This document shows, one piece after another, positions 258 through 17,143 of a stretch of 52,054 bases of DNA; positions within the stretch are counted from its first letter, which is position 1; every line of letters starts with the position of its first letter. Source of the DNA: Muribaculaceae bacterium (GTDB taxonomy: Bacteria > Bacteroidota > Bacteroidia > Bacteroidales > Muribaculaceae); contig JAFQZK010000032.1 of the NCBI GenBank assembly GCA_017405965.1, forward strand, positions 1 through 52,054, given 5' to 3'. The position numbers and the translations under genes are program-made. Below the pieces are notes generated by a model. The model saw nothing but the letters and a program-made list of their open reading frames with translations. It ran no database searches and was not told the origin of the DNA.

Positions 258-585
258 CTATTTTCTTTTAGATTTCGGTGATTTATTGTTCATGAGGCGC
301 TGGTACTCGTCCTGCGCCAGGTTGGATAAACTTGGTGGTGCCTCAGCAAATCGAACGAGTTCGTTTGCATTCACCTTGCACAAGTTTTTTTATTCCTTTG
401 TCGCCGGTCACTGTGTTGACGGTGACGAAGGGCTCGTCCAATCGCTCGTTGAGACGGGCGATGATCTCTTTCAAGTCTTAGGTTTCCTGCTTGACTGACA
501 GCGGATTATTGGGGGATACAATGTACCCCCCTTTTGTGGTATAACAGGGGTTTTCAACAATTATTACGGGATGGCGGTCAGTCAT
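258..585 (-). pseudogene. Decayed small gene joined to an array-repeat tail
   Basis: Read on the minus strand from ATG at 583-585, it begins MTDRHPVIIVENP, reaches an in-frame TAA after about 35 codons, and then continues recognisably as LKEIIARLNERLDEPF and VTGDKGIK. It then runs into a REP-like hairpin insertion (324-391). Beyond the insertion the frame becomes DEYQRLMNNKSPKSKRK and stops at 258-260, which is the tail encoded in the array repeats at 7914-12524. A second, independently decayed copy lies at 907-1432. I do not recognise the protein family. The stop codon and the insertion make it non-functional as it stands. Confidence 0.55.
324..391 (+). repeat. REP-like hairpin element, copy 1
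   Basis: One of four copies of an element of about 69 bp. It begins GATAAACTTGG, continues GGTGCCTCA, has a bulged hairpin at 346-368, and ends with CTTGCACAA. The hairpin is GCAAA-T-CGAAC, a two-base loop GA, then GTTCG-TTTGC. The T is an unpaired bulge. Compared with copy 2 the stem has changed on both arms (AAC/GTT against AGC/GCT), so pairing is maintained. Confidence 0.75.
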
Positions 586-587
586 AA

Positions 588-680
588 ATCACAAAACCAC
601 AATACTTTAACGTATCATAACGACTCTTAAAGTACTGTCCGAAAGTCCCAACAGGATCACGCTTCCAATTTAGGCGCTGG
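588..680 (-). pseudogene. C-terminal remnant of an unknown gene
   Basis: On the minus strand this stretch reads VGTFGQYFKSRYDTLKY and ends CGFVIYD followed by TGA, which overlaps the ATG of the decayed gene at 258-585. A related fragment, TFERYLKSRYDALEG, is readable at about 6020-6090 on the same strand. The two share LKSRYD-type wording, so they are pieces of one gene family that has been dispersed and eroded here. No start codon or full domain is visible, and the family is not recognised. The overlap suggests that an intact ancestor was translationally coupled to the MTDRHP gene. Confidence 0.4.
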
Positions 681-819
681 ATTTCTGCGGTTTACCAATG
701 AAATTCTGCGCCTTTTGTGTTATACAATTCGTTTTCCCCACATCAGAGTCTGGTATGGTTTATCTCTCAACGGCTGCAAAAAATCCGATATGTCGGCGGT
801 GCGTTTCATCGAATTTTAC

Positions 820-827
820 TACTTTTG
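820..827 (+). promoter_or_regulatory. -7 box (TACTTTTG) of a putative small RNA
   Basis: TACTTTTG fits the Bacteroidetes -7 consensus TAnnTTTG and lies directly before a strongly folding stretch that ends in a terminator hairpin. No clear -33 TTTG was found at the usual spacing. Confidence 0.35.
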
Positions 828-828
828 C

Positions 829-908
829 GGTGCGGGACGAGTGAGGGAGGTAAAGCCCCCGCGTCGTGCACCATTCTCGGACAGTCACTTATGATTGTCC
901 GGTTTTTT
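829..908 (+). ncRNA. Candidate small RNA with terminator
   Basis: No coding frame is supported here, but the DNA folds well. GGTGC (829-833) pairs with GCACC (868-872), GACG (836-839) with CGTC (862-865), and GGG (845-847) with a CCC run before 860. A second hairpin, GGACA (879-883) / TGTCC (896-900), is followed by six T residues (903-908), like an intrinsic terminator. With the -7 box at 820-827 this would give a transcript of about 75-80 nt. It does not match any RNA family I recognise, and the surroundings are eroded, so it could be chance structure. Confidence 0.3.
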
Positions 909-1061
909 ATTCAAGGATTCCCAATTCGTTGAGTTCCTTCGTCATCTTCTCTGTCGAATTGAGGGCGTTGGCGAAGATGTCGAGGTTCTGCGGACAGTCT
1001 GCCAGGGGCAGTTCTATCTCCATTCTGTAGTCGTCAGCATCGGTGAAGATTCGGTTCTCCG

Positions 1062-1130
1062 AAAATTTGTGCAAGCCGAATGCAAAGTAAAGCATGCTTT
1101 AACTTAGCTGAGGCGCCGCCAAATTTATTC
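1062..1130 (-). repeat. REP-like hairpin element, copy 2 (inserted)
   Basis: This 69-bp copy is in reverse orientation. Its flanks (ending TTCTCCG at 1061 and resuming ATACGTATTC at 1131) join directly in the related sequence at 6907-6925, so the limits are exact to within one base. On the minus strand its stem is AAGT-T-AAAGC, loop AT, GCTTT-ACTT (1082-1108). The bulged T again lies five pairs from the loop, and the stem sequence differs completely from the other copies. No target duplication is obvious. Confidence 0.8.
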
Positions 1131-1173
1131 ATACGTATTCTATCGAAGACCCCTTCTTCAGCGCTGCCTGGTT

Positions 1174-1236
1174 GGATAAACTTGGCGGCGCCTCAGCAAA
1201 TCGAGCGAGCTCGTTTGCCTTCAACTTGCACAAGAA
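1174..1236 (+). repeat. REP-like hairpin element, copy 3
   Basis: Same layout as the copy at 324-391: GATAAACTTGGCGG, GCGCCTCA, a hairpin at 1196-1218 (GCAAA-T-CGAGC, loop GA, GCTCG-TTTGC), then CTTGCACAAG. It interrupts the decayed gene at 907-1432. The plus-strand reading frames across it are by-products of the repeat. Confidence 0.75.
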
Positions 1237-1608
1237 TTATGCCTTTGTCGCCGGTCACGGTGCCCGCGGTGAAGAAGGGCTCGTCCAATCGCTCGCTGAG
1301 GCGGGCGATGATATCCTTCAAGCCTTTGCTCTAGTGCTTGACAGACAGCGTTTTTTTGGGGGATACAATGTACCTCCCTTTTGTGGCATAATAGGGATTT
1401 TCTACATTTATTATTGGATGGCAATCGGTCATAGATCACAAAATCACAAAATCACAATACTTTTATGACTTACAGCGGGTCCGTTTTTCATCATGCCATC
1501 CGCAATCTGTCGCTCCGATGAGGCTAGTATGAGAGTTATTCACTGCCTCCCTGCCTATAACCTGGTTGACACTGACAGGAGTTTTCCTGGGCAACAATGA
1601 TTGTATGC

Positions 1609-2823: not shown

Positions 2824-3324
2824 TTAGTTAGACTCGGGATGATATCTGTCGTATTTGAAGGTCGTCGTCTTGGTATCAATGATTTTTTCACCAGAGAGCG
2901 AAACGCGCCTGCAAGTCAAGACGAGGGTGGCCCTCCAGTAGAACTGGTTCTTCGGGTCGTTCTGGTCGAGTTTCTCGAGTTTGCTCTTGAAAGCATTGAC
3001 CTTGGTTTCCAATTCGGTCAATTTTTTCTTGGCAACTTCATCTTCACGCTTGAAAACCTCATCCTGATCGCCCTTGGTATATTTCACAGTCCACTCGCCT
3101 CCCGCGAGGATTTCCCCGAACTCGGCACGAAGGGCGTTATAAGTATCTCTAGCACCCGTTTCGCCTGCCAATTGGCTGAAATAAGTCACTTCTTCATCAT
3201 ACGCACCACCATAGGAATAAGTGGCCTGCATATCGGGCTCTTTGTCATCTCCACACGATGCCAGACAAACACTCGCTAAGGCCACACACATGATGGCGCC
3301 TACAGTAAATAAAAACTTCTTCAT
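2824..3324 (-). CDS. Small lipoprotein, tandem paralogue 2
   Basis: 166 residues, signal MKKFLFTVGAIMCVALASVC with lipobox LASC, followed by GDDKEPD. It is the sister of the product at 2265-2753: the same signal peptide, a shared helical segment with QDEVFKREDEVAKKKL, and a shared C-terminal stretch with DTKT and YDR. It lies 86 bp downstream of the secreted protein gene at 3411-4187 on the same strand, so co-transcription is plausible. The signal region stays nearly identical while the mature part has diverged, which may reflect recent duplication with selection on the exposed part. Function is unknown. Confidence 0.8.
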   Translation of the reverse strand: MKKFLFTVGAIMCVALASVCLASCGDDKEPDMQATYSYGGAYDEEVTYFSQLAGETGARDTYNALRAEFGEILAGGEWTVKYTKGDQDEVFKREDEVAKKKLTELETKVNAFKSKLEKLDQNDPKNQFYWRATLVLTCRRVSLSGEKIIDTKTTTFKYDRYHPESN

Positions 3325-6093: not shown

Positions 6094-6765
6094 TTATTTG
6101 TTGATAAATGTCAAGACTTGCTGTGCAATTGACCTCATTCCTTTTACGGTGGGATGATTCTGTTTCTTGTCAATATCTTTTAGTTCGATATATGGAATGT
6201 CGTAATGGTTACAAATCACTTTGGTCGATTCTTTAAAATCTTTATCCAGGATGTCATTGATGAGAAAGAAGATCCTGACATTGGGATACCTCTCCTTTGC
6301 CTGCTGTAGCAGGTTAGCCAATGCGGGACGATAGGTGAAGAAGTCGGCCTGAGCGAAATCATCATATTGGTAATCGCCCAATTCTGCCCCCGCCCAGTCG
6401 TCGTTGGTGGCTCCAAAGATGAAAATCACATCAGGGCTGCCCAGGCGAGGCAATCGGGTGACAAACGACCTGTAGCTGTAATCTTCATTGTTGTATCCGT
6501 GGTTGCTGACCGTGGCACCGCTGTAAGAATCAATTTTCTCAATGAGGCAGCCAGCCTGATTGATGACCTGCCACCACCAGGTCTGAGTGACATTGTCCAC
6601 ATCGGTTCTTGAAGTGTCGGCCGGGGTATAGTACCATGTCTCGTTTCCCTCGGGTATATACCCTTGAAAAGTCGAGTAAGAGTCACCCAAAACCGAAACG
6701 CGTAGTCGATTCTGTGCACTGGCAAGCAGCGGGATCAGCAGAATGAGAAGCAAGACTTTTTTCAT
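6094..6765 (-). CDS. SGNH/GDSL-family hydrolase, secreted
   Basis: The 223-residue product starts MKKVLLLILLIPLLASAQ, a cleavable signal peptide; I prefer this Met to one three codons upstream because it begins a standard signal. Block I is VLGDSYSTF with the catalytic Ser at about residue 29, the Asn block is IFGATNDDW, and the C-terminal His block is NHPTVKGM. It belongs to the SGNH esterase/lipase group, which includes carbohydrate deacetylases and lysophospholipases; the substrate cannot be read from sequence. A -7 box (6796-6803) and a partial array repeat lie just upstream, so it is the last gene of the cassette-like string. Confidence 0.85.
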   Translation of the reverse strand: MKKVLLLILLIPLLASAQNRLRVSVLGDSYSTFQGYIPEGNETWYYTPADTSRTDVDNVTQTWWWQVINQAGCLIEKIDSYSGATVSNHGYNNEDYSYRSFVTRLPRLGSPDVIFIFGATNDDWAGAELGDYQYDDFAQADFFTYRPALANLLQQAKERYPNVRIFFLINDILDKDFKESTKVICNHYDIPYIELKDIDKKQNHPTVKGMRSIAQQVLTFINK

Positions 6766-6795
6766 AACTAACAATGATTGATGTTATTAATAGCA

Positions 6796-6803
6796 CAAAG
6801 GTA
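6796..6803 (-). promoter_or_regulatory. -7 box TACCTTTG for the SGNH hydrolase
   Basis: The minus strand carries TACCTTTG 31 bp before ATG 6765, preceded by a degenerate copy of the array-repeat tail (about 6815-6855). Confidence 0.5.
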
Positions 6804-6853
6804 GTGATTATTCCCCAAAAACGCTGATATTTCACTTTGATTTTGGTGATTTT

Positions 6854-6979
6854 TCAAGCGGGCAGTTTAATCTCCATGCTGTAGTCGCCGGCATCGATGA
6901 AGATGCGGTTCTCCGATACATACTCTATCGAAGACCCCTTCTTCAGCGCTGCCTGTTTTCCGTTTATCGTCAGTATCAT
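6854..6979 (-). CDS. 41-residue small open frame, possible microprotein or gene fragment
   Basis: From ATG 6977-6979 to TGA 6854-6856 the minus strand encodes 41 residues beginning MILTINGKQAALKKGSS and containing SENRIFIDAGDY. It equals the middle of the decayed gene at 907-1432, without the hairpin insertion found there. It has its own -7 box (7003-7010) 24 bp upstream, set inside an 11-bp perfect inverted repeat. It is therefore either an expressed small protein or a truncated remnant that kept a promoter. It reads directly into the repeat-like tail before the SGNH gene. Function is unknown. Confidence 0.4.
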   Translation of the reverse strand: MILTINGKQAALKKGSSIEYVSENRIFIDAGDYSMEIKLPA

Positions 6980-6987
6980 AAAGAATT

Positions 6988-7020
6988 GCGGTTGATTTGC
7001 CGCAAAGGTAAATCAACCGC
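6988..7020. promoter_or_regulatory. 11-bp inverted repeat around a -7 box
   Basis: GCGGTTGATTT (6988-6998) and AAATCAACCGC (7010-7020) are perfect complements and enclose CAAAGGTA (7003-7010), a minus-strand TACCTTTG box. An operator overlapping a promoter is the simplest reading; it also lies where an array repeat copy (remnant of GAAAAGACG at 7033-7041) has been truncated. Confidence 0.4.
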
Positions 7021-7091
7021 GTATGACTGGAAAAGACGACGTTAAATTGGAATTACATCAAAGGTGCCGCCACTATATTCGTTAAAATCGG

Positions 7092-7859
7092 TTAGGATTG
7101 ACTCCAACGATGAAGAATTCTAATGCTGATCCAAATAAGAACAAAACATAATAAAACGAATAAATATTTAGTTGTCGATATCATTAACAAAATGAAAACA
7201 TAAAAAGCATTTTTGATTGGCAAACTATCATATTGATAATTATTATCAAGATAATGTTCTCTAAAATATTTATTATATCTATTAACTTCTAGAAGCTCGG
7301 ATAAATCTAACTGACAATTTCCAAATATCAAACCCCGAAAAGAATTTGGCGCGTAAAGAGGACGAGGTATGATTAAAGTAACAGGACTTGTGTCAATCAC
7401 CTTAAACGAGAATAGGTATTTATCACCATACTTATTGCTCACACCATCATTATTAGGCAAAAAGATGCTTATCTCACAATAGCGTGGTCCTTTACCTTCG
7501 GCTTTATGCCAACCTAAACGCCCCCAATCCACCTTCATTGTATCAATCCTATATTCCTCATGCTTAGTGTTATTTCTTTCATCAATTATTAACACTTTTC
7601 GCTTTCCATAACATGCAGCAGTGTCCGTCTGAATCAAAGCAGTAAAGCGCGACACAAACTCATCTATTGATAAATCTTTTATTCGATATTCAGTATTATC
7701 CAGGCTATAATATTGATGATATGGTGTCATATCTCCATTGTCAAATTGTTCATTACTACATCTGGTAAATAAGAAGAGTGCCCACATTGAGAGAAATAGT
7801 ATGAAATAAGTTCCGAGAAACTTACTAATAATTTTGTTTATTCTTCGATATGTTTCCAT
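7092..7859 (-). CDS. Membrane protein of unknown function, array gene
   Basis: 255 residues, start METYRRINK chosen because the -7 box at 7893-7900 lies just upstream of it and inside the longer frame. It has an N-terminal transmembrane helix (about 17-35), an extracytoplasmic region, and a C-terminal helix (about 220-245). The segment YSLDNTEYRIKDLS, FVSRFTAL, DTAACYGKR and later HYLDNNYQYDS and KNAFY are shared in order with the product at 10457-11437, so the two are paralogues of an unnamed family. It lies between repeat copies like the other array genes. Function is not recognised. Confidence 0.75.
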   Translation of the reverse strand: METYRRINKIISKFLGTYFILFLSMWALFLFTRCSNEQFDNGDMTPYHQYYSLDNTEYRIKDLSIDEFVSRFTALIQTDTAACYGKRKVLIIDERNNTKHEEYRIDTMKVDWGRLGWHKAEGKGPRYCEISIFLPNNDGVSNKYGDKYLFSFKVIDTSPVTLIIPRPLYAPNSFRGLIFGNCQLDLSELLEVNRYNKYFREHYLDNNYQYDSLPIKNAFYVFILLMISTTKYLFVLLCFVLIWISIRILHRWSQS

Positions 7860-7892
7860 GTTTATCACATATTTAGAGTTACATTTGAAATA

Positions 7893-7900
7893 CAAATATA
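7893..7900 (-). promoter_or_regulatory. -7 box TATATTTG for the gene at 7092-7859
   Basis: TATATTTG on the minus strand, 33 bp before the chosen ATG. It begins right after repeat copy R1. Confidence 0.5.
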
Positions 7901-7913
7901 GCAATAATTCTCT

Positions 7914-8019
7914 ATTTTCTCTTAGATTTCGGTGATTTATTGTTCATGAGGCGCTGGTACTCGTCCAGACTTTTATAATTTTGGGAAAGTTGCTCAACTG
8001 CTTATGCCTTGAAAAGACG
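7914..8019 (-). repeat. Array repeat R1 (106 bp)
   Basis: Spans from the stop of the gene at 8033 to the promoter of the gene at 7092. On the minus strand it starts CGTCTTTTCAAGG and ends AAATCTAAGAGAAAAT. Read as protein it gives KA-stop-AVEQLSQNYKS then DEYQRLMNNKSPKSKRK and a stop. Copies R4 (10303-10408) and R6 (12419-12524) have the same 106-bp length. Confidence 0.85.
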
Positions 8020-8032
8020 GAAAGGCGCAATG

Positions 8033-8554
8033 CTACCGTTGTTTAAAACTCAAGTTGATTGCTTTTTCTTTTAGTTCAGTGTAAAATGCAACAGAATCAA
8101 GAGGCCCTTCCAAATTTTTTGTAATCACTCCATTAACTCTCATCCACGAATTCTTATAAGATGGATTAGCGAAAGGCGGTTCAACTCGATAAATATGGCC
8201 ATATGTTTCTTTTTGATGCAAATCCAGTTTAACACTTTTGTCTATTATCCAATAATCTGTAATGCTGTCAGATACCACACTGTCTGGGATACTCTTGTGA
8301 TATCCATAACGGATTTTTGTCTTCGCAATAATCCACCTATTATCATAGGCATAGTCTATAATTCCTTGATCTATCACTACTGACCCCCCGTTTATTTCAT
8401 CACCATAGATAAGTCCTTTGCATTCAACATCAATATAGTAATCATCCCCCAAACGCTCATGCACATTCCAATCTTGAAAATCTTTTAAAGTACAAGAAGC
8501 AGAAATAATGGCGATCACACCACCGATAACCAGAAATAAACGACATCTTTTCAT
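8033..8554 (-). CDS. Lipoprotein of unknown function, array gene
   Basis: 173 residues starting MKRCRLFLVIGGVIAIISASC, a lipoprotein signal with attachment at the Cys of SASC; this Met is preferred to one three codons upstream. The mature part (DDYYIDVECKGLIYG, ITDYWIIDKS) looks beta-rich and has no recognised motif. Its stop is only 13 bp from the repeat R1. A weak -7 box TTCCTTTG is present on the minus strand at 8572-8579, preceded by repeat R2. It is unlike its neighbours in sequence, which fits independently acquired cassettes. Function is unknown. Confidence 0.75.
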   Translation of the reverse strand: MKRCRLFLVIGGVIAIISASCTLKDFQDWNVHERLGDDYYIDVECKGLIYGDEINGGSVVIDQGIIDYAYDNRWIIAKTKIRYGYHKSIPDSVVSDSITDYWIIDKSVKLDLHQKETYGHIYRVEPPFANPSYKNSWMRVNGVITKNLEGPLDSVAFYTELKEKAINLSFKQR

Positions 8555-8603
8555 ATTGATCATTATTTATGCAAAGGAAGGGATTTATTTCGTTTAAACA
8601 CTC

Positions 8604-8700
8604 ATTTTCTCTTAGATTTCGGTGATTTAAAGACGCTGGCACCCACCTGAGTTTTACAATTTTGTTATAAGTTGTTCAACCGCGTAAGCCTTGAAAAGAC
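8604..8700 (-). repeat. Array repeat R2 (degenerate, 97 bp)
   Basis: Shares KAYAVEQL coding and the ends GTCTTTTCAAGG and AAATCTAAGAGAAAAT with R1 but has lost part of the middle (DEYQRLMNN region). Confidence 0.75.
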
Positions 8701-8760
8701 ATGCAGATAAATCGGTATAACAATCTGCTCACATAACAATTGTTGAGAATGGATAAATCT

Positions 8761-9384
8761 TTAGAACTTCATGCCGAAGGCCAGCTGGATGTTGCCGTTC
8801 TTGCTTTCATTAAACCCACTTTTAAACACACTGGTGAGACCGAGTGTATAGCGTGCCTGAACAAAGGCGTTGTCAGTCAAGTTATATGTGCCGCCAAGAC
8901 CCAAGCCGAAGTCAACCGCCTTGGTGTACTTTTTATTATTCGTGACATACTTATAATCACGATCTCCGTCATTACTCTTGATAGTGTATTTGCTATACAC
9001 GTTGAAACCCACTTGCGGACCAAAGTCGATGCTGAATGCGGGCGTTGCATAGTACTTGAGCATCACGGGCACATTGATGTAGTTGACCTGATGTGAAATC
9101 ATCGTCGTTGACGTGGGCTCCTCTCCTACCCACCCCTCTTCATATAAAGACCTTTTGCCATTACCCTGTGAGGCAAACACCACTTCGGGCGAAACGGCAA
9201 ATGCGTGGCTGAATTTGTATTCCATCACCAAACCCGCCTGATAGTTCAGTGCCATCTTATGACCAACATCCTTACCCCAAAAGTTGGTCAAGTCAACACC
9301 CACCTTTGCACCAAATTGAACTTGCGCGCTTGCGCTCATGCATGCCAGTACAGCAAGTAGCAGTGTCATTAGTTTCTTTGTCAT
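8761..9384 (-). CDS. Outer-membrane beta-barrel (porin-family) protein
   Basis: 207 residues with signal MTKKLMTLLLAVLACMSASAQ and then alternating beta strands (VQFGAKVGVDLTNF, NYQAGLVMEYKF, YINVPVMLKYY, FGPQVGFNVY) ending in an aromatic terminal residue (LAFGMKF). This is the pattern of the small outer-membrane beta-barrel family (PF13568-like) common in Bacteroidetes, usually eight strands. It probably sits in the outer membrane; whether it is a channel or a structural or immune-related protein cannot be told. It has the -7 box at 9419-9426 and lies between repeats R2 and R3. Confidence 0.85.
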   Translation of the reverse strand: MTKKLMTLLLAVLACMSASAQVQFGAKVGVDLTNFWGKDVGHKMALNYQAGLVMEYKFSHAFAVSPEVVFASQGNGKRSLYEEGWVGEEPTSTTMISHQVNYINVPVMLKYYATPAFSIDFGPQVGFNVYSKYTIKSNDGDRDYKYVTNNKKYTKAVDFGLGLGGTYNLTDNAFVQARYTLGLTSVFKSGFNESKNGNIQLAFGMKF

Positions 9385-9418
9385 AACAATATCATTTTTA
9401 GTTAATGTTTATCAGCTG

Positions 9419-9426
9419 CAAAGGTA
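9419..9426 (-). promoter_or_regulatory. -7 box TACCTTTG for the beta-barrel gene
   Basis: TACCTTTG on the minus strand, 35 bp before ATG 9384, directly preceded by the conserved end of repeat R3. Confidence 0.55.
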
Positions 9427-9450
9427 GTAAAAATCTTTGCTAAACACTTC

Positions 9451-9550
9451 ATTTTCTCTTCTTTTTCGATGCTTTGTTGTTAGGTGTTATTCGTCCCGAC
9501 TTTTATCATTTTGGTATAAGTTCTTCAGCCGATTAGACCTTGAAAAGACG
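9451..9550 (-). repeat. Array repeat R3 (100 bp)
   Basis: Most diverged of the long copies: the ends CGTCTTTTCAAGG and AAAGAAGAGAAAAT are kept while the coding sense of the centre is lost. Confidence 0.7.
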
Positions 9551-9569
9551 TAACATTATCTAACCATAA

Positions 9570-10241
9570 TCAAGGATTGTTAGATTCCTTTCTGAGAGAA
9601 AACAACCCTATTTTCCATAATAAGAACAAGGCTAGAATGATGACAATTAGTGTGATAACAGTTCCAATCATATACGGTATCTTTCTGGACTCCCAATAGA
9701 ATTCATTTAACGTCAATATTTTGATTTGCCCGTTATCAATCATGGTAGATATGCGCTTGTCGTTTTCAAGAAGAGTAATAGATTTTTTACTTGTATTGAG
9801 AACGAAATTTACGCAATTATCTTGATTGATGCCTATAACTGTGTCACCAACCACCTGGATATTTGTCACGTCGGCACTAACATCAAATCTTAATTCATCA
9901 TCAGAAATCGTCACTTTCTGATCATCACAAGTAATGTAGCCATGCCATGTATTATCATCAATTGAGCATAATTTGTACCCATTGGGTAAATGGGCAACCC
10001 ACGAATCCCCTATTCCTAGGTCTATATCACAGATAACCGATGTGAGCAGCATTGTTACAAAACTGCCTACAATCCAGATGCCTATGGCTACCGCTGGTGA
10101 AATGGCTGCAAGAAATACCTTGCGTTTTCTTTTGCGTTTTCCACCTAGCACATATGCCACCAGTCCACCAATGACACCCAACACCCATGCCAGTAGTAAC
10201 CCAAAACCTAAAATAAACAGGATATTGACAAATAACATCAT
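9570..10241 (-). CDS. Membrane protein of unknown function, array gene
   Basis: 223 residues. Helices are visible at about 2-32 (FILGFGLLLAWVLGVIGGLV), 43-68 and near the C-terminus (about 190-212, VITLIVIILALFLLWKIG), with a basic KRKRKRK loop after the first and an extracytoplasmic domain of about 110 residues (SWVAHLPNGYKLCSIDD, WHGYITCDDQKVTIS). The first Met was kept because it lies 31 bp after the -7 box at 10272-10279. The domain arrangement resembles small DUF membrane proteins of Bacteroidetes, but I cannot name the family. It is flanked by R3 and R4. Confidence 0.75.
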   Translation of the reverse strand: MMLFVNILFILGFGLLLAWVLGVIGGLVAYVLGGKRKRKRKVFLAAISPAVAIGIWIVGSFVTMLLTSVICDIDLGIGDSWVAHLPNGYKLCSIDDNTWHGYITCDDQKVTISDDELRFDVSADVTNIQVVGDTVIGINQDNCVNFVLNTSKKSITLLENDKRISTMIDNGQIKILTLNEFYWESRKIPYMIGTVITLIVIILALFLLWKIGLFSLRKESNNP

Positions 10242-10271
10242 AGACTATTAAGGATACTATAATTGACATTG

Positions 10272-10294
10272 CAAAGGTAGCGATTATTTCGCTA
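10272..10294 (-). promoter_or_regulatory. -7 box TACCTTTG with overlapping palindrome
   Basis: On the minus strand TACCTTTG (10272-10279) directly follows a near-perfect palindrome, TAGCGATTATTTCGCTA on the plus strand (10278-10294), set between the -7 and where a -33 would be. The same arrangement occurs at 12389-12411, so it is a conserved part of the array repeat. Confidence 0.5.
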
Positions 10295-10302
10295 AACACT
10301 TC

Positions 10303-10408
10303 ATTTACTTTTAGATTTCGGTGATTGATAGTTCATGTTGCGCTGGTACTCGTCCTGACTTTTATAATTTTGGAAAAGTTGTTCAACCGCGTATGCCTTG
10401 AAAAGACG
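10303..10408 (-). repeat. Array repeat R4 (106 bp, open reading frame intact)
   Basis: The best copy for coding: the minus strand reads RLFKAYAVEQLFQNYKSQ then DEYQRNMNYQSPKSKSK and TGA without interruption. It has no start codon of its own, so it looks like the 3' end of a gene reused as a spacer. Confidence 0.85.
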
Positions 10409-10456
10409 TGCCGAATGGTAATATTTTCTTTTGCTGTTATATCTATAAGTCATTGT

Positions 10457-11437
10457 TTATTGGTTGCGCATCACAATTCTTTTAATCAGTTGTAAAAGCA
10501 ATCCAAGTAGCAATAAAATAATTAAAAGTGGAATTGATGGTATAAAAATAAGATAGAAGTAATTGCTGAGGAAATAACTTCCCATGATGTCATCAAGCTT
10601 TGAATAAAAAGCGTTCTTCGTTGATTGCCGATCATACTGACAAATGCGGTCAAGATAGTGTCTAGCTATATATTTTTCAACCATTGAGTCCTGAGTTCTT
10701 CCCAACAGCAATCTCAACGGCTGGTCATCAACAACCGTTACTGACATTAGGAATTTACCTTCATAGGCCTTGTTCCCTCTGTCAGTAAAATTACATTTAT
10801 GAGAATACTTGTTTACGGCTCCGATGCTATCGAATGGCACAAAGAAACTGAAACAGTAACATAATGGGCCTGTCTTATTTTCTACGAATAAAAATGTGCC
10901 CACGGACAAGGTATCGATATCATTATCATCGAAATCTGATGGAATAAGACCTTCAGATATTCTATACCCAAGACTTGGAATCCGTGATTGATGAACCGTG
11001 GTGTCAACAATGAAAACATCAGGAAAATCATTCAATAACAGATTATTATTCTGATGTTTTGTTTCTTGTTTCACTTGTGACTTTTCCACGGTAACAGTCT
11101 CAGTAAGCACACGGCCATTTCCTGCCACTGAGTCAACATCAGATTTCACATGATGCTTGAAAGTAGAGATTCCATAGTGTGCAACCGTATCTTGCGCCAA
11201 GAGATCTGCGAACTTGGAAACAAACTCTTTTTGAGTTATTCCAAGTAACAGGTACTCAGTATCATCAACACTATAATTATATTTAAAGGGTTGGTCAGGA
11301 TGTTCATATTGCGTACGATTCGTACCGTCGATGAGATTACATATAGTGGACAGTGCAATGATACATAACACTTCCAATGCCACGAAGATTGCAAAAAATT
11401 TCACAACGGCCCAATAGACTTTCATAAACTTCTCCAT
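10457..11437 (-). CDS. Membrane protein of unknown function, larger paralogue
   Basis: 326 residues, start MEKFMKVYWAVVKFF, chosen because it begins the first transmembrane helix (about 8-33) and a longer frame adds only basic residues. A C-terminal helix spans about 290-318 (YFYLIFIPSIPLLIILLLLGLLL). Between them, YSVDDTEYLLLGIT, FVSKFADLL, DTVAHYG, HYLDRICQYD and KNAFY align in order with the product at 7092-7859. This copy has an extra segment of about 70 residues rich in Asp and Val in the middle. The two copies are separated by three unrelated genes, which suggests cassette insertion rather than simple tandem duplication. Function is unknown. Confidence 0.75.
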   Translation of the reverse strand: MEKFMKVYWAVVKFFAIFVALEVLCIIALSTICNLIDGTNRTQYEHPDQPFKYNYSVDDTEYLLLGITQKEFVSKFADLLAQDTVAHYGISTFKHHVKSDVDSVAGNGRVLTETVTVEKSQVKQETKHQNNNLLLNDFPDVFIVDTTVHQSRIPSLGYRISEGLIPSDFDDNDIDTLSVGTFLFVENKTGPLCYCFSFFVPFDSIGAVNKYSHKCNFTDRGNKAYEGKFLMSVTVVDDQPLRLLLGRTQDSMVEKYIARHYLDRICQYDRQSTKNAFYSKLDDIMGSYFLSNYFYLIFIPSIPLLIILLLLGLLLQLIKRIVMRNQ

Positions 11438-11530
11438 AATTGTTAAATCTTTTTCTTTATAACGAAAAAGACACCTCATTATTACTCAATGATAAGTTGA
11501 TCCAATTTGTTGGTTTTTGTGAGTAATTCT

Positions 11531-11605
11531 TCTTGAGGCGCTGGTGTTTGCCCAGACTTTTATAATTTTGGAAAAGTTGCTCAACCGCCTAAACCTTGAA
11601 AAGAC
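11531..11605 (-). repeat. Array repeat R5 (truncated, about 75 bp)
   Basis: The minus strand keeps TGTCTTTTCAAGG, AVEQLFQNYKSLGKHQRL and then leaves the consensus, so the SPKSKRK end and the promoter palindrome are missing. The downstream gene at 10457-11437 accordingly lacks the usual box. Confidence 0.75.
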
Positions 11606-11631
11606 ATTCCGATTAATTGGGGTTTATACAA

Positions 11632-12351
11632 TTATCTCATCCATCCTTCAACCCTGTATATCTTTTCGCATAGTTTTCTTTCCTTCTTTGATGCTGCATC
11701 TCTAAACCACACCTCTATTCGAGCAGCATAGTAATCTTCGAAATCACCTTCATAGATGGTAAACTCTTGATGATTAACCAATTGAGAGAAGGAGCATGTG
11801 GCATCCACGAGTACTGCGCTTCGATGCTGCAATCTATCTTCCGATAAAGGGATATTTTCAGTAGCCTCAAAACATCGCAGGAATACTTCTCCAGAAGGTA
11901 AGGAAGGATAGTAAAAATCATACATGTACATACCACCTTGGACTCCTTGCCAAACCTGCAGGTAAGTTTCGGTGTTAAGGCTATCAATAAGCACATCTTT
12001 GTCTGATGATGAGTAAAGTGGCAAATGATATTCAAGACCATCGGGGATTTTATGCTTACTTCCAAAATCATCAGCATCAGGTCCAAACATTGCAGCCGTC
12101 ACCAGAGGCACCCAAAACAAAACTACAATTATTACAGAAGACAAGAATGACAAGATGCATTGCCACCATTTTTTATTGATCAGCAAAATAATCCAAGAAA
12201 CTGGAAGTAGAATGACCACCAATAAGAGCAAAACACCGACTATGCTTTCAGAAATACTAGGAGTTGAGGTAAAAGAATACATCAAGCCCAGTAAGCCGAA
12301 ACATAGCAGTAGTGGCAATACCCACCAATATTTAATTACAATATTTTTCAT
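11632..12351 (-). CDS. Membrane protein of unknown function, array gene
   Basis: 239 residues with three N-terminal transmembrane helices (about 8-27, 34-58 and 64-88: VLPLLLCFGLLGLMYSF, VGVLLLLVVILLPVSWIILL, LSFLSSVIIVVLFWVPLV) followed by an extracytoplasmic domain of about 150 residues starting GPDADDFGSKHKIPDG. That linker wording occurs in Bacteroidetes membrane proteins I have seen as hypothetical. It has a TATCTTTC box at 12389-12396 upstream within the repeat-linked promoter, and lies between R5 and R6. No enzymatic motif is visible. Confidence 0.75.
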   Translation of the reverse strand: MKNIVIKYWWVLPLLLCFGLLGLMYSFTSTPSISESIVGVLLLLVVILLPVSWIILLINKKWWQCILSFLSSVIIVVLFWVPLVTAAMFGPDADDFGSKHKIPDGLEYHLPLYSSSDKDVLIDSLNTETYLQVWQGVQGGMYMYDFYYPSLPSGEVFLRCFEATENIPLSEDRLQHRSAVLVDATCSFSQLVNHQEFTIYEGDFEDYYAARIEVWFRDAASKKERKLCEKIYRVEGWMR

Positions 12352-12388
12352 GCCCGAACGATTAAACTCCGATTTATATTAAACGCAG

Positions 12389-12411
12389 GAAAGATAGCGA
12401 ATATTTCGCTA
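12389..12411 (-). promoter_or_regulatory. -7 box TATCTTTC with palindrome TAGCGAA-TAT-TTCGCTA
   Basis: The palindrome at 12395-12411 has two perfect 7-bp arms and overlaps the -7 box at 12389-12396. Same place and sequence as at 10272-10294. Confidence 0.5.
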
Positions 12412-12418
12412 AACACTC

Positions 12419-12524
12419 ATTTTCTTTTAGATTTCGGTGATTTATTGTTCATGAGGCGCTGGTATTTGCCCAGACTTTTATGATTTTGGAAAAGTTGTTC
12501 AACCGCTTTTATCTTGAAAAGACG
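12419..12524 (-). repeat. Array repeat R6 (106 bp)
   Basis: The minus strand begins eight bases after the stop of the gene at 12533 and reads KAVEQLFQNHKSLGKYQRL then MNNKSPKSKRK and TGA. It ends at the promoter of the gene at 11632. Confidence 0.85.
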
Positions 12525-12532
12525 AGGCTACT

Positions 12533-13969
12533 CTAATTCTGCGTGACACGCACAGCACGCACGGGGAACCCGATGTATCGTTCGTTGCCGTAGTTGCCTT
12601 TATGGTCATCTAAATAGAAGAAAAGAATGACAGCAGCATACGAATGATTATCGTCATAGAGTGTGCGTGACCAAAATTGGCCGAAGGAACCTAAGTCGCC
12701 ACTGGTATTATTGTATCGCTCGCCCGCAGCGGGAAGGAACATAGATTGGCCATTTGGCCCAGTCACCAATTGGCCATTCACGCCGTTCCTTGTCGTCTGC
12801 TGCCATGTGCAAGATTGACAAAGCTCTAAACATTGTTCTCTGGATGGCATGCGCCATGACGGACCCCAGTTGACATAAGCGGCATCATCTTCAAACTCTA
12901 GAACTGTCTTGTTGTCAACAGTGCCAAAATCGTTGTTTGTGCAGTACTTGGTGATAGAACTTTTAGTACCGTTACACCACTTGTAAGTTTCCCATGTATA
13001 GACCTCCTTGGGAGCGGTCTCGCCCCAAGCAAAATAGTCGCCGTACTGCTCTGGGGTGTTGGCGCCCAGGTTGCACGTTGCCCATAGCGTACCACTAGGC
13101 AACCCAAGGTCAACATATTCATGATTATCTTGAGGTGCACCGCCCCCCAGGATGAGGTCGATGAGGGCATTGACATCGGCAATGTTGACTTCATGATCTA
13201 GATTCACGTCGCCAGCAGTGAGATTACCGCTACCGCTCAAGATGATGTCAATGACAGCATTTACATCGGCAATATTGACCTCGTAGTCACTGTTCACATC
13301 TCCAATTATGCTACTACCACCATCTCGTGAGACAATGATGTGAGTGGCACGATTTCCATCTCCTCGAGCGATGAAGTTGCCATATTCATCGTGTTCGACA
13401 TAGGCATCCTCTGGAAAAGTGATAGCACAGTTCAGGAAAGTAATGGATTCGCCGAATCTTTCTACTACACCATTGATGTCTGCTTGTACGTTGTCAAACT
13501 TAAGCGCACACAGCACACCATCTCCACAATTAATGCCTTTGGTTGTCTGCAGAGTGATATCTTTGATAGTCAGGCGAGTGCATTTGCAATAAATGCCACG
13601 CATAGTGCTGGAAAGGTAGAGCTTGCCATTGCCTTGAACGGTCACGTTTTTACTATTTGTGCCTTCAAAGCCTATAGCAACAAAGCCCGTAGTGGTCAGT
13701 TTACAATCTCCTTGTATGATAATGGTGGCCTCATCTTCAGTAAGACGGATAGGATAAACATAATCGTAGGGCGTCTCGCTACTGTGTTCTACAACAGCAT
13801 TTTTCAGCGTGAGCGTGTGGTTACCTTCATCCCAGATGATGCTGCCGCTCTTAATATAAGGGCAATTGAAATGTCCGTTAGCATCAGGGCTCACGTCGCA
13901 AATGGTAATCTCGGCAACTGCACCGAGTGCCGCAACCAGTGATAGGCAAAGTAAGAATAGTTTCTTCAT
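12533..13969 (-). CDS. Secreted protein with internal dockerin-like repeats and a FISUMP domain
   Basis: 478 residues, signal MKKLFLLCLSLVAALGAVAE. Residues about 22-210 form a repetitive beta region of short strands (GHFNCPYIKSGSIIWDEG, NHTLTLKNAVVEH, TVQGNGKLYLSS) like a small beta-helix. Two Ca-binding dockerin-type units follow at about 218-275 (GDVNSDYEVNIADVNAVID, GDVNLDHEVNIADVNALID). The C-terminal part (about 285-478) starts YVDLGLPSGTLWATCNLGA, the hallmark of the Fibrobacter succinogenes major paralogous (FISUMP) domain, and ends FPVRAVRVTQN. It is probably a surface or adhesion-type protein. It is the first and largest gene of the repeat-spaced array. Confidence 0.85.
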   Translation of the reverse strand: MKKLFLLCLSLVAALGAVAEITICDVSPDANGHFNCPYIKSGSIIWDEGNHTLTLKNAVVEHSSETPYDYVYPIRLTEDEATIIIQGDCKLTTTGFVAIGFEGTNSKNVTVQGNGKLYLSSTMRGIYCKCTRLTIKDITLQTTKGINCGDGVLCALKFDNVQADINGVVERFGESITFLNCAITFPEDAYVEHDEYGNFIARGDGNRATHIIVSRDGGSSIIGDVNSDYEVNIADVNAVIDIILSGSGNLTAGDVNLDHEVNIADVNALIDLILGGGAPQDNHEYVDLGLPSGTLWATCNLGANTPEQYGDYFAWGETAPKEVYTWETYKWCNGTKSSITKYCTNNDFGTVDNKTVLEFEDDAAYVNWGPSWRMPSREQCLELCQSCTWQQTTRNGVNGQLVTGPNGQSMFLPAAGERYNNTSGDLGSFGQFWSRTLYDDNHSYAAVILFFYLDDHKGNYGNERYIGFPVRAVRVTQN

Positions 13970-14062: not shown

Positions 14063-14167
14063 GCGAATATCTTTCGTCTAAACAATCTCTTTCTCTAACA
14101 TTTTGGTGATTTGGCTAAATTAAAGATAAATAACTTCTTATATGCGGGATTTTTCGAAAATTAATAG

Positions 14168-14197: not shown

Positions 14198-17143
14198 ATG
14201 AAAAGAGCCCTACAACTGTTTTTGATGACGGCATTTGTGCTGTATGCCACTGTGGCACAGGCTGCTGTCAAGACCGAAGGCAACTTCGTGACAATCGACA
14301 TCGAGTATGCTCAGGCAGGTGCTGCCCGCGTGGTACGCCTGCAAGTGGTGAACGACAACATCGTGCGGGTGCAGGCCACCTGCGAGGCACAACTGCCGGC
14401 CAAGCCGGCCAGCCTGATGATTGTGCCGCAGACGGCCAAGCCCAAGTTCACGGTCACCGACAATGGCGACAGTTATTGCGTCAAGGCCAAGAACGTGACG
14501 GCCACCGTCAACAAGGCCGATGGCCGCATCAAGTTCACCGACGAAGGCGGCAAGGTCCTGGCGACTGAGGCCGTGGGCGGTAAGTCGTTCAAGCCATTCA
14601 ATGTGCCCGAGCGCGAAATCGGTGTCGGCACCCTGACCGACGACCAGAGTAAGGGCTTGACCTGGACGCTCAAGTTCGAGAACCAAGATGAGGCGCTCTA
14701 TGGCCTGGGACAGCACCAGTCGGGCGAACTCAACATGAAGGGCAAGAACGAGGATCTGTTCCAGTATAATACCAAGGTGAGCGTGCCCATGGTACTGAGC
14801 ACCAACGGCTACGGCATCCTGTGGGACAGCTACAGCTATTGCCGCTTTGGCAACCCCGAGGACTATCAGCAGCTGAACCGTGCCTTCAACCTCTATGACA
14901 AGCACGGCAAGAAAGGCAGCCTGACGGGCACCTATACCGACAAGAACGGCCAACGCCTGGTGCGCGGTGAGGACTCCCTCTATTATGAGTTTGACATGCC
15001 CGCAGGATCGGAACTGGGCAAGTTGACCGAGCCCGGCGGCATCAAGAACCTGCCGAAGGGCTTTGCCCTGAACGGCGCGACGGTGGTCTATGAAGGCTTC
15101 ATCGAGCCGAAGGGACGCGTGAGCGAGACGCTGCGTCAGTTCATCCTCTACTATGCCGGCTACATCAAGGTGTACATTGGCGGCGAGGAAGTGGTTCCCG
15201 AGCGCTGGCGCACGGCATGGAACCCCAACGCATGGAAATTCACCGCCCAGGTGCCTTCAGGCAAAAAGACGCAGCTGCGCATCGAGTGGCAACCCGACGG
15301 TGACGTGTCTTATTGCGGACTGCGCGTGTCGGCACCCCGCAGCGCTGCCGAACGTGAGCAACTCACCGTGTGGAGCGAGATGAGCCGCGACATGGACTAC
15401 TACTTCATCGCCGGTCAGAACTTTGACGAAATCATCTCGGGCTACCGCACCCTCACGGGCAAGGCCTCGTTGTATCCCAAGTGGGTGCTGGGCTTCTGGC
15501 AGAGCCGCGAGCGCTACAAGAGTTCGCAAGACATCGAGCAGACGCTTGCCGAGTTCCGCAACCGCCGCATCCCCGTCGACAACATTGTGCAGGACTGGAA
15601 TTACTGGAAACTGGAGAACTGGGGCGACCACACCTTTGAGGCCTCGCGCTTCCCCAACCCGCAGGCCATGCTCGACTCGGTCCACGCCATGCACGGCCGC
15701 TTCATGATCAGTGTCTGGCCCAAGTTCTATGAGACCGTCGACAATTACAAGGCGCTTGATGCCAAAGGCTGGATCTACAAGCAAGCCATCGTTGACGACA
15801 TCCACGACTGGCTGGGATTCCGCGGCTCGTTCTACGATGCCTATGACGCGGGGGCCCGCAAACTGTTCTGGAAACAGATGGACGACAACCTGTACACCAA
15901 GTACGGCCAGAGCATCGACGCCTGGTGGATGGACGCCAGCGAGCCCAACATACGCGACTGCACGCCCATGTGGTACCGCAAAGCCCTGTCAGGCCCCACG
16001 GCCCTGGGTTCGTCGACCGAATATTTCAACGCCTACTCTATCGTCAACGCCGACGCCATCTATAACGGCCAGCGTGCCACGGGCAACAATAAGCGCGTGT
16101 TCCTGCTTACCCGCAGTGGCTTTGCAGGCGAACAACGCTACTCAACTGCCACATGGAGCGGCGACATCGGCACCCGTTGGGAAGACATGAGAGCCCAGAT
16201 GACTGCAGGCCTCAACTTCTCGATGTCAGGCATCCCCTTCTGGGGCATGGACCAGGGCGGATTCTGCGTCGAGAACCGCTATGTGGCCGCACAGCAAGAG
16301 TTTGACCAAACAGGCCACGAGAACAGCGACCTGACCGAATGGCGCGAGCTGCAAGCCCGCTGGAACCAGTTCGGTTGCTTCATCCCCTTGTATCGTGCCC
16401 ACGGCCAGTGGCCCCTGCGCGAGGTGTTCAACATCGCCCCCGAGGGTCATCCCGCCTATGAGAGCATCGTCTATTACCACAAGCTGCGCTACCGCATGAT
16501 GCCTTACCTCTACTCAATGGCCGGTTGGGCACACTTCAAGGATTACACGCTCATGCGCGCACTGGTGATGGACTTTGCCGACGACAAGAACGTGCTCGAC
16601 ATCCCCGACCAGTGGATGTTCGGCCCCGCCTTTATGGCATGCCCCGTCGCTACCTACAAGGCCCGTAACCGCCAGGTTTACTTCCCCAAGCAGTGCGGCT
16701 GGTATGACCTGTACAGCGGCCAGTATATCGAAGGCGGCCAGAAGCTGGTGGTTGACGCCCCCTATGAGACAATGCCCGTGTTTGTGCGCGAAGGCAGCAT
16801 CATTCCCTTCGGCCCCGAGATGCAGTGGAGTGACGAAAAGCCCGCCGAACTCATCAACCTGTATATCTACGCAGGTGCCGACGGCCAGTTCCAGCTCTAC
16901 GAGGACGAGGGCACCAACTACAACTATGAGAAAGGCAAGTACGCCACCATCGACTTCAGCTATGACGATGCCGCCCGCACGCTCACCATCGGTGCCCGCC
17001 AAGGCTCGTACAAGGGCATGCTTAGGGCACGCCGCTTCAACGTCGTTGTCATCACCCGCGACAATCCCCGCGAGCTCAACCTCGAGAATCCCGCAGGGAA
17101 GATGGTAGAGTACAACGGCAAGCAAGTGACTGTCGAACTATAA
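14198..17143 (+). CDS. GH31 glycosidase with PA14 insert, probable alpha-xylosidase
   Basis: 981 residues, signal MKRALQLFLMTAFVLYATVAQA. An N-terminal GH31 beta-sandwich is interrupted at about 260-390 by a PA14-like insert (VYEGFIEPKGRVSETLRQF, YYAGYIKVYIGGE). The barrel begins near YPKWVLGFWQSRERYKS. The nucleophile is Asp579 in WWMDASEPN and the acid/base Asp656 in TWSGD. A PA14 insert at this place is known from the alpha-xylosidases of Bacteroides xyloglucan loci, so removal of alpha-1,6-xylose from xyloglucan oligosaccharides is the best guess. The next gene follows after 43 bp on the same strand, and the enzyme probably works in the periplasm. Confidence 0.9.
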   Translation: MKRALQLFLMTAFVLYATVAQAAVKTEGNFVTIDIEYAQAGAARVVRLQVVNDNIVRVQATCEAQLPAKPASLMIVPQTAKPKFTVTDNGDSYCVKAKNVTATVNKADGRIKFTDEGGKVLATEAVGGKSFKPFNVPEREIGVGTLTDDQSKGLTWTLKFENQDEALYGLGQHQSGELNMKGKNEDLFQYNTKVSVPMVLSTNGYGILWDSYSYCRFGNPEDYQQLNRAFNLYDKHGKKGSLTGTYTDKNGQRLVRGEDSLYYEFDMPAGSELGKLTEPGGIKNLPKGFALNGATVVYEGFIEPKGRVSETLRQFILYYAGYIKVYIGGEEVVPERWRTAWNPNAWKFTAQVPSGKKTQLRIEWQPDGDVSYCGLRVSAPRSAAEREQLTVWSEMSRDMDYYFIAGQNFDEIISGYRTLTGKASLYPKWVLGFWQSRERYKSSQDIEQTLAEFRNRRIPVDNIVQDWNYWKLENWGDHTFEASRFPNPQAMLDSVHAMHGRFMISVWPKFYETVDNYKALDAKGWIYKQAIVDDIHDWLGFRGSFYDAYDAGARKLFWKQMDDNLYTKYGQSIDAWWMDASEPNIRDCTPMWYRKALSGPTALGSSTEYFNAYSIVNADAIYNGQRATGNNKRVFLLTRSGFAGEQRYSTATWSGDIGTRWEDMRAQMTAGLNFSMSGIPFWGMDQGGFCVENRYVAAQQEFDQTGHENSDLTEWRELQARWNQFGCFIPLYRAHGQWPLREVFNIAPEGHPAYESIVYYHKLRYRMMPYLYSMAGWAHFKDYTLMRALVMDFADDKNVLDIPDQWMFGPAFMACPVATYKARNRQVYFPKQCGWYDLYSGQYIEGGQKLVVDAPYETMPVFVREGSIIPFGPEMQWSDEKPAELINLYIYAGADGQFQLYEDEGTNYNYEKGKYATIDFSYDDAARTLTIGARQGSYKGMLRARRFNVVVITRDNPRELNLENPAGKMVEYNGKQVTVEL

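Follow-up and report, generated by a model that had tools for sequence, protein, structure and literature searches.

What kind of element sets seven largely unrelated genes in a row, on one strand, with copies of one and the same sequence between them? Such a row is found in a contig of Muribaculaceae bacterium (GenBank assembly GCA_017405965.1, contig JAFQZK010000032.1), where seven minus-strand genes lie between a gene for a GH31 glycoside hydrolase and one for a GDSL-like lipase, spaced by six copies of a repeat. The window analysed, 52,054 nucleotides in length, is the whole of this contig (C28, 52 kb), one of the 40 contigs of the parent genome (G000). The right half of the spacer is the end of a phage tape-measure protein gene (TMP), its left half leads into a second phage tail gene (here termed X), and related phages carry variable cargo genes in the slot between these two; the row thus looks like an array of phage cargo genes (morons) from which the phage core has been deleted. 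With a probability of about 0.82, we regard it as an array of prophage cargo genes in which the TMP-derived spacer serves as recombination joint.

An earlier note, made from the letters of the window, had described three copies of the repeat as exactly 106 bp and three more as worn. The equal length is retained in three gap-free copies of 106 nucleotides (7914-8019, taken as reference, 10303-10408 and 12419-12524), which are not identical, the latter two matching the reference at 90%. A profile search of the minus strand recovers six copies in all, the worn ones included (8023-7898, 8706-8588, 9554-9434, 10413-10287, 11611-11505 and 12528-12402; E 5e-26 to 5e-38); since those six copies also served to build the profile, independent support comes from its matches in other contigs and genomes. 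The repeat begins 8-59 bp past a stop codon, as had been noted, and the genes are indeed dissimilar, no pair being matched at E <0.5 apart from those at 7092 and 10457 (blastp E 1e-10). A seventh, half copy (7005-7038) closes the row and is followed by a truncated start of X (6979-6860). A conserved intergenic sequence is thus present between units, and in all of the 38 full copies collected from this genome and its relatives a left part (CGTCTTTTCAAGG..CGGTTGA..) and a right part (..GACGAGTACCAGCGCCTCATGAACAATAAATCACCGAAATC..) can be discerned. The sequence motif TAnnTTTG, which we take to be a promoter motif, follows 52 of 73 junctions across the genus, compared with 7.6 in shuffled sequences, in line with the suggestion that the spacers run into a promoter box of the next gene. 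A variant of the spacer, with an insert of about 60 nucleotides containing CATGCTTGCATG in the right part, occurs in many junctions (L010 10450-10580, L075, L087 and others).

The source of both halves of the spacer was revealed by half copies. The right half is the 3' end of TMP, encoding a terminus that closes with DEYQRLMNNKSPKSKRK and a stop codon, plus the promoter of the following gene; where right parts stand alone, in several places an upstream open frame enters them and ends in RLNERLDEPFVTVNTVTGDKGIKQAQDEYQRLMNNKSPKSKRK and a stop codon, the TMP C-terminus. The identity of TMP was obtained via the PHROG tape measure family (2.8e-56 in the phage locus L166, 2.5e-12 for a fragment in L078). 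Lone left parts are found at the 3' ends of arrays, and most of them continue into a palindrome and the start codon of X, the palindrome of the X promoter in one relative folding with a z of -4.2. X is 653 aa long in L078, and profile and database searches gave no family match for it. The best match to X in G000, an assembly that is 96% complete, covers 55 residues, so that this genome as assembled has arrays without an intact X. Inside many TMP and X relics, at the same joint, an element of about 68 bp (GCAAACGAGCTYGCTCGATTTGCTGAGGCGCCGCCAAGTTTATCCAACCAGGC) is seen, probably another repeat of the genus (window about 315-395 and about 1090-1245; L064, L084, L093 and L103).

The features of the locus, in the order in which the row is read, are as follows (F numbers denote families).

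14198..17143, plus strand: GH31 glycoside hydrolase, upstream flank
14069..14116, minus strand: promoter remnant resembling the right part, ahead of the first gene (73% match in the repeat search)
12533..13969, minus strand: first gene of the row, 478 aa, family F0 (Dockerin_1 and weak Lcl_C)
12402..12528, minus strand: junction 1, consisting of unit 3' end, TMP 3'-end relic and promoter of the next gene
11632..12351, minus strand: unit F27, 239 aa, hydrophobic N-terminal part, no family at E <0.01
11505..11611, minus strand: junction 2, right part worn
10457..11479, minus strand: unit F28, 340 aa, distant homologue of the gene at 7092 (blastp)
10287..10413, minus strand: junction 3
9570..10241, minus strand: unit F29, 223 aa, present in the tRNA-Ser-locus array of genome G046
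9434..9554, minus strand: junction 4, worn
8761..9384, minus strand: outer-membrane beta-barrel protein, 207 aa (OMP_b-brl_2)
8588..8706, minus strand: junction 5, worn
8033..8563, minus strand: lipoprotein-like unit, 176 aa (DUF3997, under its cut-off)
7898..8023, minus strand: junction 6, TMP residues 1365-1381 aligning to 7965-7915 at 94%
7092..7859, minus strand: last unit, 255 aa counted from ATG
7005..7038, minus strand: terminal half junction, left part only, running into the X promoter palindrome
6860..6979, minus strand: truncated start of the phage tail gene X (92% to residues 1-40 of intact X)
6094..6774, minus strand: GDSL-like lipase, downstream flank (family F1)
261..1330, minus strand: further TMP and X relics near the contig end, with a right-half copy at 248-314

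Names given to open reading frames (ORFs) without a database search are readings by eye. Family F0 is the commonest unit family of the sample (15 ORFs). Most of 133 matches in the own genome are due to the dockerin-like stretch of its member in the window (residues about 216-280), which resembles a module spread genome-wide. A homologous pair of lipoprotein-like genes (F46; 2265-2753 and 2824-3324) lies between the end of the contig and the lipase. The contig opens within a reading frame (1-219) without a Pfam match, which to our eyes resembles the end of an insertion sequence (IS) transposase, and the contig may therefore break at an IS beside the phage relics.

If the spacer stems from TMP and X, phages that still carry both genes should reveal what stands between them. 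With X as query, eight loci on seven contigs were retrieved from IMG/VR. Five of these (L166-L170, the last cut by its contig end) have the arrangement TMP, one or two variable genes, X, and their aligned segments are 51-86% identical in TMP and 59-95% in X, whereas the cargo shows no mutual blastp match at 1e-3. GC (guanine plus cytosine) content is 33-50% in the cargo versus 53-61% in TMP and X. The distant relative L171, with 31% identity in X, has no cargo, and its TMP and X genes overlap by 4 bp. A gene on the opposite strand occupies the expected integrase position in L166-L168, and integrases confirmed by Pfam are found at the corresponding position in L078 and L066. A tRNA gene lies past the integrase in L078 (Gly), L066 (Ser), L167 (Pro) and L168 (Ser), and none was found there in L166 and L169; apparently, a tailed phage family of this rumen genus integrates at tRNA genes.

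The term moron denotes a gene added between the conserved genes of a temperate phage, and PMC2920897 offers four criteria by which morons may be recognized. The cargo is like morons in all of them: it separates genes that a related phage has side by side (five of the five closer loci, compared with L171), it would be under its own control as judged by the TAnnTTTG motif, its GC content deviates, and the site is a hotspot holding different genes. On these sequence features the cargo would qualify as morons. In 11 cases, representing 10 families, cargo follows an open frame that is 44 or more codons long and closes with the TMP C-terminus. Five of these families are also found next to the short spacer, namely F6, F13 and F16 in chromosomal arrays and F34 and F72 in prophage-type loci only. 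The listing of TMP-type loci from which the 11 cases were drawn has 24 rows, some of them false (the insert of about 68 bp standing in place of TMP), while L080, with 36 codons, is a true one. Families F5 and F1, at first considered as cargo shared with TMP-type loci, rest on such false rows and are not counted. Among the cargo, a gene of the CrcB fluoride channel family (L095:7858-8226) lies right behind a TMP frame of 1372 codons.

Intermediates between prophage and array are also found. In L173 (IMG/VR contig 3300026549_002532) a TMP end is followed by two lipoprotein-like genes, one of them 86% identical to array family F6, then by a truncated X joined in frame to a second TMP end, a further cargo-like gene and an integrase remnant, the other end of the contig having the order TMP, cargo, X. 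This may be read from the sequence as two neighbouring prophages minus the DNA between the X of one and the TMP of the next. In the prophage L078, TMP, which runs open to the end of the contig, is separated from an intact X by four cargo genes, two of which flank a short spacer, and in L070 at least three cargo genes lie between TMP and X sequences that are both incomplete. We infer the following order of events. Tailed phages would carry one or two variable genes of lower GC content, with their own promoter, between TMP and X; their prophages would stack, and the DNA from the X of one to the TMP of the next would be deleted. Cargo genes would in this way be left adjacent, parted by a short scar composed of the unit 3' end, the TMP 3' end and the next promoter. 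Repeated in arrays and in some prophages, the scar would offer homology through which units may be inserted, deleted and reordered by recombination.

Such turnover is apparent when genomes are compared. Of the 101 genomes of the genus, 51 are matched by the repeat, whole or partial, some in the right half only, and a search of 397 genomes of the family gave 46 same-genus matches and five weak partial ones in other genera, none of which extends over the left part; copy numbers are at least those counted, from the best eight candidates per genome in the 101-genome search and the best two in the 397-genome search. For 57 pattern matches in named genomes all titles are Bacteroidales, and the animal, where titled, is a ruminant. 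Of 57 repeat matches, 23 are no more than 1 kb from a contig end (3.8 expected), as would be seen if assemblies break at repeats that are shared. Nine genomes have the same GH31 and lipase flanks (from 24 with the lipase, 15 being excluded as no GH31 was on the fetched stretch), with 164, 219, 1360, 1445, 1541, 2331, 3741, 3944 or 7432 bp between them. TMP scars are visible between these flanks in G060, G078 and G088. At this locus G046 holds F0, F28 and F5, compared with F0, F27, F28, F29 and the units of 207, 176 and 255 aa in the window. In G060 an F0 gene at this locus sits behind a TMP relic. Genes for tRNA-Arg and tRNA-Ser are about 0.5 kb from the locus in that genome, which suggests that the GH31-lipase locus may be an old prophage site too. 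A second array of the own genome, at a tRNA-Ser locus on contig C20, reads F0, a two-gene unit, F5, F6, F50, and the corresponding array of G046 reads F0, F6, F5, F29, three genes, F50, three genes. After five loci whose arrangement was already represented by another locus were excluded from the linkage and pair counts (L074, L088, L089, L102 and L178; 80 junctions reduced to 74) and six of the 74 junctions without a called neighbour were set aside, the 68 junctions with both neighbours called (40 loci) comprise 63 distinct ordered pairs, and every recurrent family, whether on the left (11) or on the right (13), has at least two partners. The cassette behaviour proposed in the earlier note is thereby upheld, as relatives share the repeat with different genes between the copies and units vary at the same locus; the repeat is neither a fixed spacer in a constant gene order nor a common genome-wide repeat.

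The units have a median GC content of 39% compared with 53% in the flanks, and 44 of 58 unit families versus 151 of 315 flank families look envelope-targeted by our own simple sequence rules. All units of the window are co-oriented, and a few units elsewhere hold reverse genes. In the 15 families with usable pairs, among which the flank lipase F1 is included and phage-type and chromosomal copies are pooled, the median of the family values for the ratio of non-synonymous to synonymous substitution rates (dN/dS) is 0.17, and 14 of the 15 are below 0.5. Considering the erosion of TMP and X, the cargo looks conserved while these two genes decay. Pfam matches among the units comprise DUF4160, nucleotidyltransferase, CrcB, DUF1016 nuclease, GNAT acetyltransferase, PAD-type deiminase, redoxin, C69 peptidase and HTH or DNA-binding proteins, several other units having none. 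Four of ten proteins submitted to PADLOC match candidate defence models (a PDC-M64 pair, PDC-S02 and PDC-S09); the PDC-M64 match is to the two-gene unit of the second array in the own genome (L010:10588-11299). The predicted structures of F6 and F28 were too poor for a fold search (mean pLDDT 43 and 47.5).

If the repeat were the target of a recombinase in a site-specific cassette system of the integron or rAID kind, this would account for the integron-like anatomy, for co-oriented and mostly low-GC genes and for units that encode acetyltransferases, candidate defence proteins and toxin-antitoxin-like proteins; a first linkage profile even hinted at a sharp crossover within about 8 bp at CGGTTG. 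This candidate crossover was contradicted by same-locus triplets and by family-averaged linkage. Where the left gene is the same and the right one differs (38 pairs, 12 families), linkage to the left reaches about column 58 of the spacer; where the right gene is the same (45 pairs, 13 families), linkage is clear from about column 114 and partial (0.65) at columns 74-84, columns 58-114 being otherwise weakly linked to either side in the family averages. In two same-locus pairs inspected by eye, the crossovers differ in position (about columns 85-114 and 112-121). Exchange spread over about 60 bp fits homologous recombination or conversion rather than a single recombinase point, and RecA-type homologous recombination would then perform it. 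In the genome seven matches to the tyrosine recombinase domain PF00589 were found, none of them on the array contigs C28 (52 kb) and C20 (149 kb), serine recombinases and transposases not being searched; the best IntI score (TIGR02249, own genome only) was 72 bits against a cut-off of 265, and an attC-like fold did not exceed chance on either strand of one spacer consensus (z +0.23 and +0.51). Beside some arrays ORFs of 303-492 aa occur; those of L078 and L066 are phage integrases by Pfam, and the remaining ones we take, by reading alone, to be host genes. Nor was an immunity domain detected by Pfam in the seven window products or by PADLOC in five of them, and phage tail genes account for the content of the spacer. 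The rAID-type system suggested by the earlier note is hence not supported, nor is an integron, and a site-specific system is improbable; that note had not recognized the spacer as a remnant of prophage tail genes.

If the phage origin is accepted, the array might still be neutral debris, that is, decayed tandem prophages in which cargo survived by chance, with neither selection nor active shuffling. The plain decay of the TMP and X relics and the three worn spacers of the window are as this explanation predicts, but the low dN/dS in 14 of 15 families and the recurrence of the same families in many orders make it rather unlikely. A rival with a better claim, though still tentative, is growth inside the phage, where recombination at the moron slot would build multi-moron prophages and the arrays would be their decayed remains, with no tandem-prophage step. 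L078, with X intact, and L070 speak for it, each holding at least three cargo genes between TMP and X sequences, whereas the fusion of X to TMP and the integrase remnant between cargo genes and prophage in L173 are what tandem prophages predict. The two routes are not exclusive. A general repeat found behind many genes, be it a MITE, a REP or a promoter element, would likewise be repeated and intergenic, but strong copies in the own genome are confined to C28 and C20 (39.2-41.6 kb), with weak partial matches elsewhere, full copies occur in one genus only among the 397 family genomes, and the repeat encodes the end of TMP; this explanation can be given hardly any weight.

Several observations weigh against the array of prophage cargo genes that we favour. 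No source was found for the central 25 or so nucleotides of the spacer, and the exact pattern of its middle occurs in 0 IMG/VR contigs, in a search from which close relatives of the window may be missing. Directly behind an intact TMP, no unit family of the window was found; an IMG/VR scan with F29 and F0 gave no relative of F29, and a relative of F0 (57%) near one end of the phage contig IMGVR_UViG_3300028048_003170, which is not at the TMP-X slot. No tRNA gene is found in the window. Ordinary bacterial genes not seen in these phages (a peptidase C69 and a reverse-oriented gene of 798 aa) are present among the units, many families are seen once, so that the count of distinct pairs is inflated, and none of five window proteins (of seven) matched in PADLOC. 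Finally, the membrane-protein-like family F2 (e.g. L085:9245-9802) has a median dN/dS of 0.74 over 25 pairs, and may be a diversifying, arms-race gene.

Integrons and CALIN have single-gene units in one orientation, a constant spacer, and toxin-antitoxin-like and acetyltransferase genes. The present arrays are alike in all these respects, but differ from integrons in that no IntI above the cut-off, no attC-like fold and no fixed crossover were found, and in that a promoter motif of its own follows most array units. The rAID arrays of Bacteroidales are characterized, according to PMC12247911, by a contiguous tyrosine recombinase, co-oriented short genes below 41% GC, a conserved intergenic sequence and orphan immunity proteins. 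A conserved intergenic sequence is shared with these, and short genes that are co-oriented in the window and in many cases of low GC content are reminiscent of them; compared with what is described there, however, the array contigs lack a tyrosine recombinase match, the window products an immunity domain match, the spacer is phage tail DNA, and only part of the units are below 41% GC (85 of 136 unit ORFs, five of the seven window genes). From the morons of phages the arrays differ in that the cargo appears to outlive the phage, strung together on the chromosome in shuffled arrays whose spacer derives from TMP. A functional analogy is offered by Ltp of phage TP-J34, a small phage lipoprotein expressed in the lysogen, the target of which, going by the title of a reference (Bebeacua 2013) cited in PMC3952083, is a tape-measure protein; the likeness of the array units to Ltp would be one of function only, as ltp is positioned in the lysogeny module. 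By such analogy the units would be kept for raised lysogen fitness, most likely by excluding other phages. Literature searches on rAID, superinfection exclusion, moron or prophage-remnant arrays, tandem prophages and defence hotspots returned no description of the arrangement in titles and the beginnings of abstracts, and its novelty is claimed on these searches.

The arrays may, tentatively, be a phage-fed and recombinase-free counterpart of integrons, in which each lysogeny would deposit cargo at the TMP scar, the scar would serve the host as a standard joint for recombination, and the genus would keep an evolving archive, built up over past infections, of phage-exclusion and other fitness genes shared by chromosomes and phages. 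An array of prophage cargo genes joined by TMP scars would show concretely how, with no dedicated integrase involved, phage cargo could be turned into bacterial gene content that persists in ordered and shuffled form, and would account for arrays in Bacteroidales that are liable to be mistaken for rAID. Reading behind the tape-measure scar would also yield uncharacterised small envelope genes as candidates for phage exclusion.

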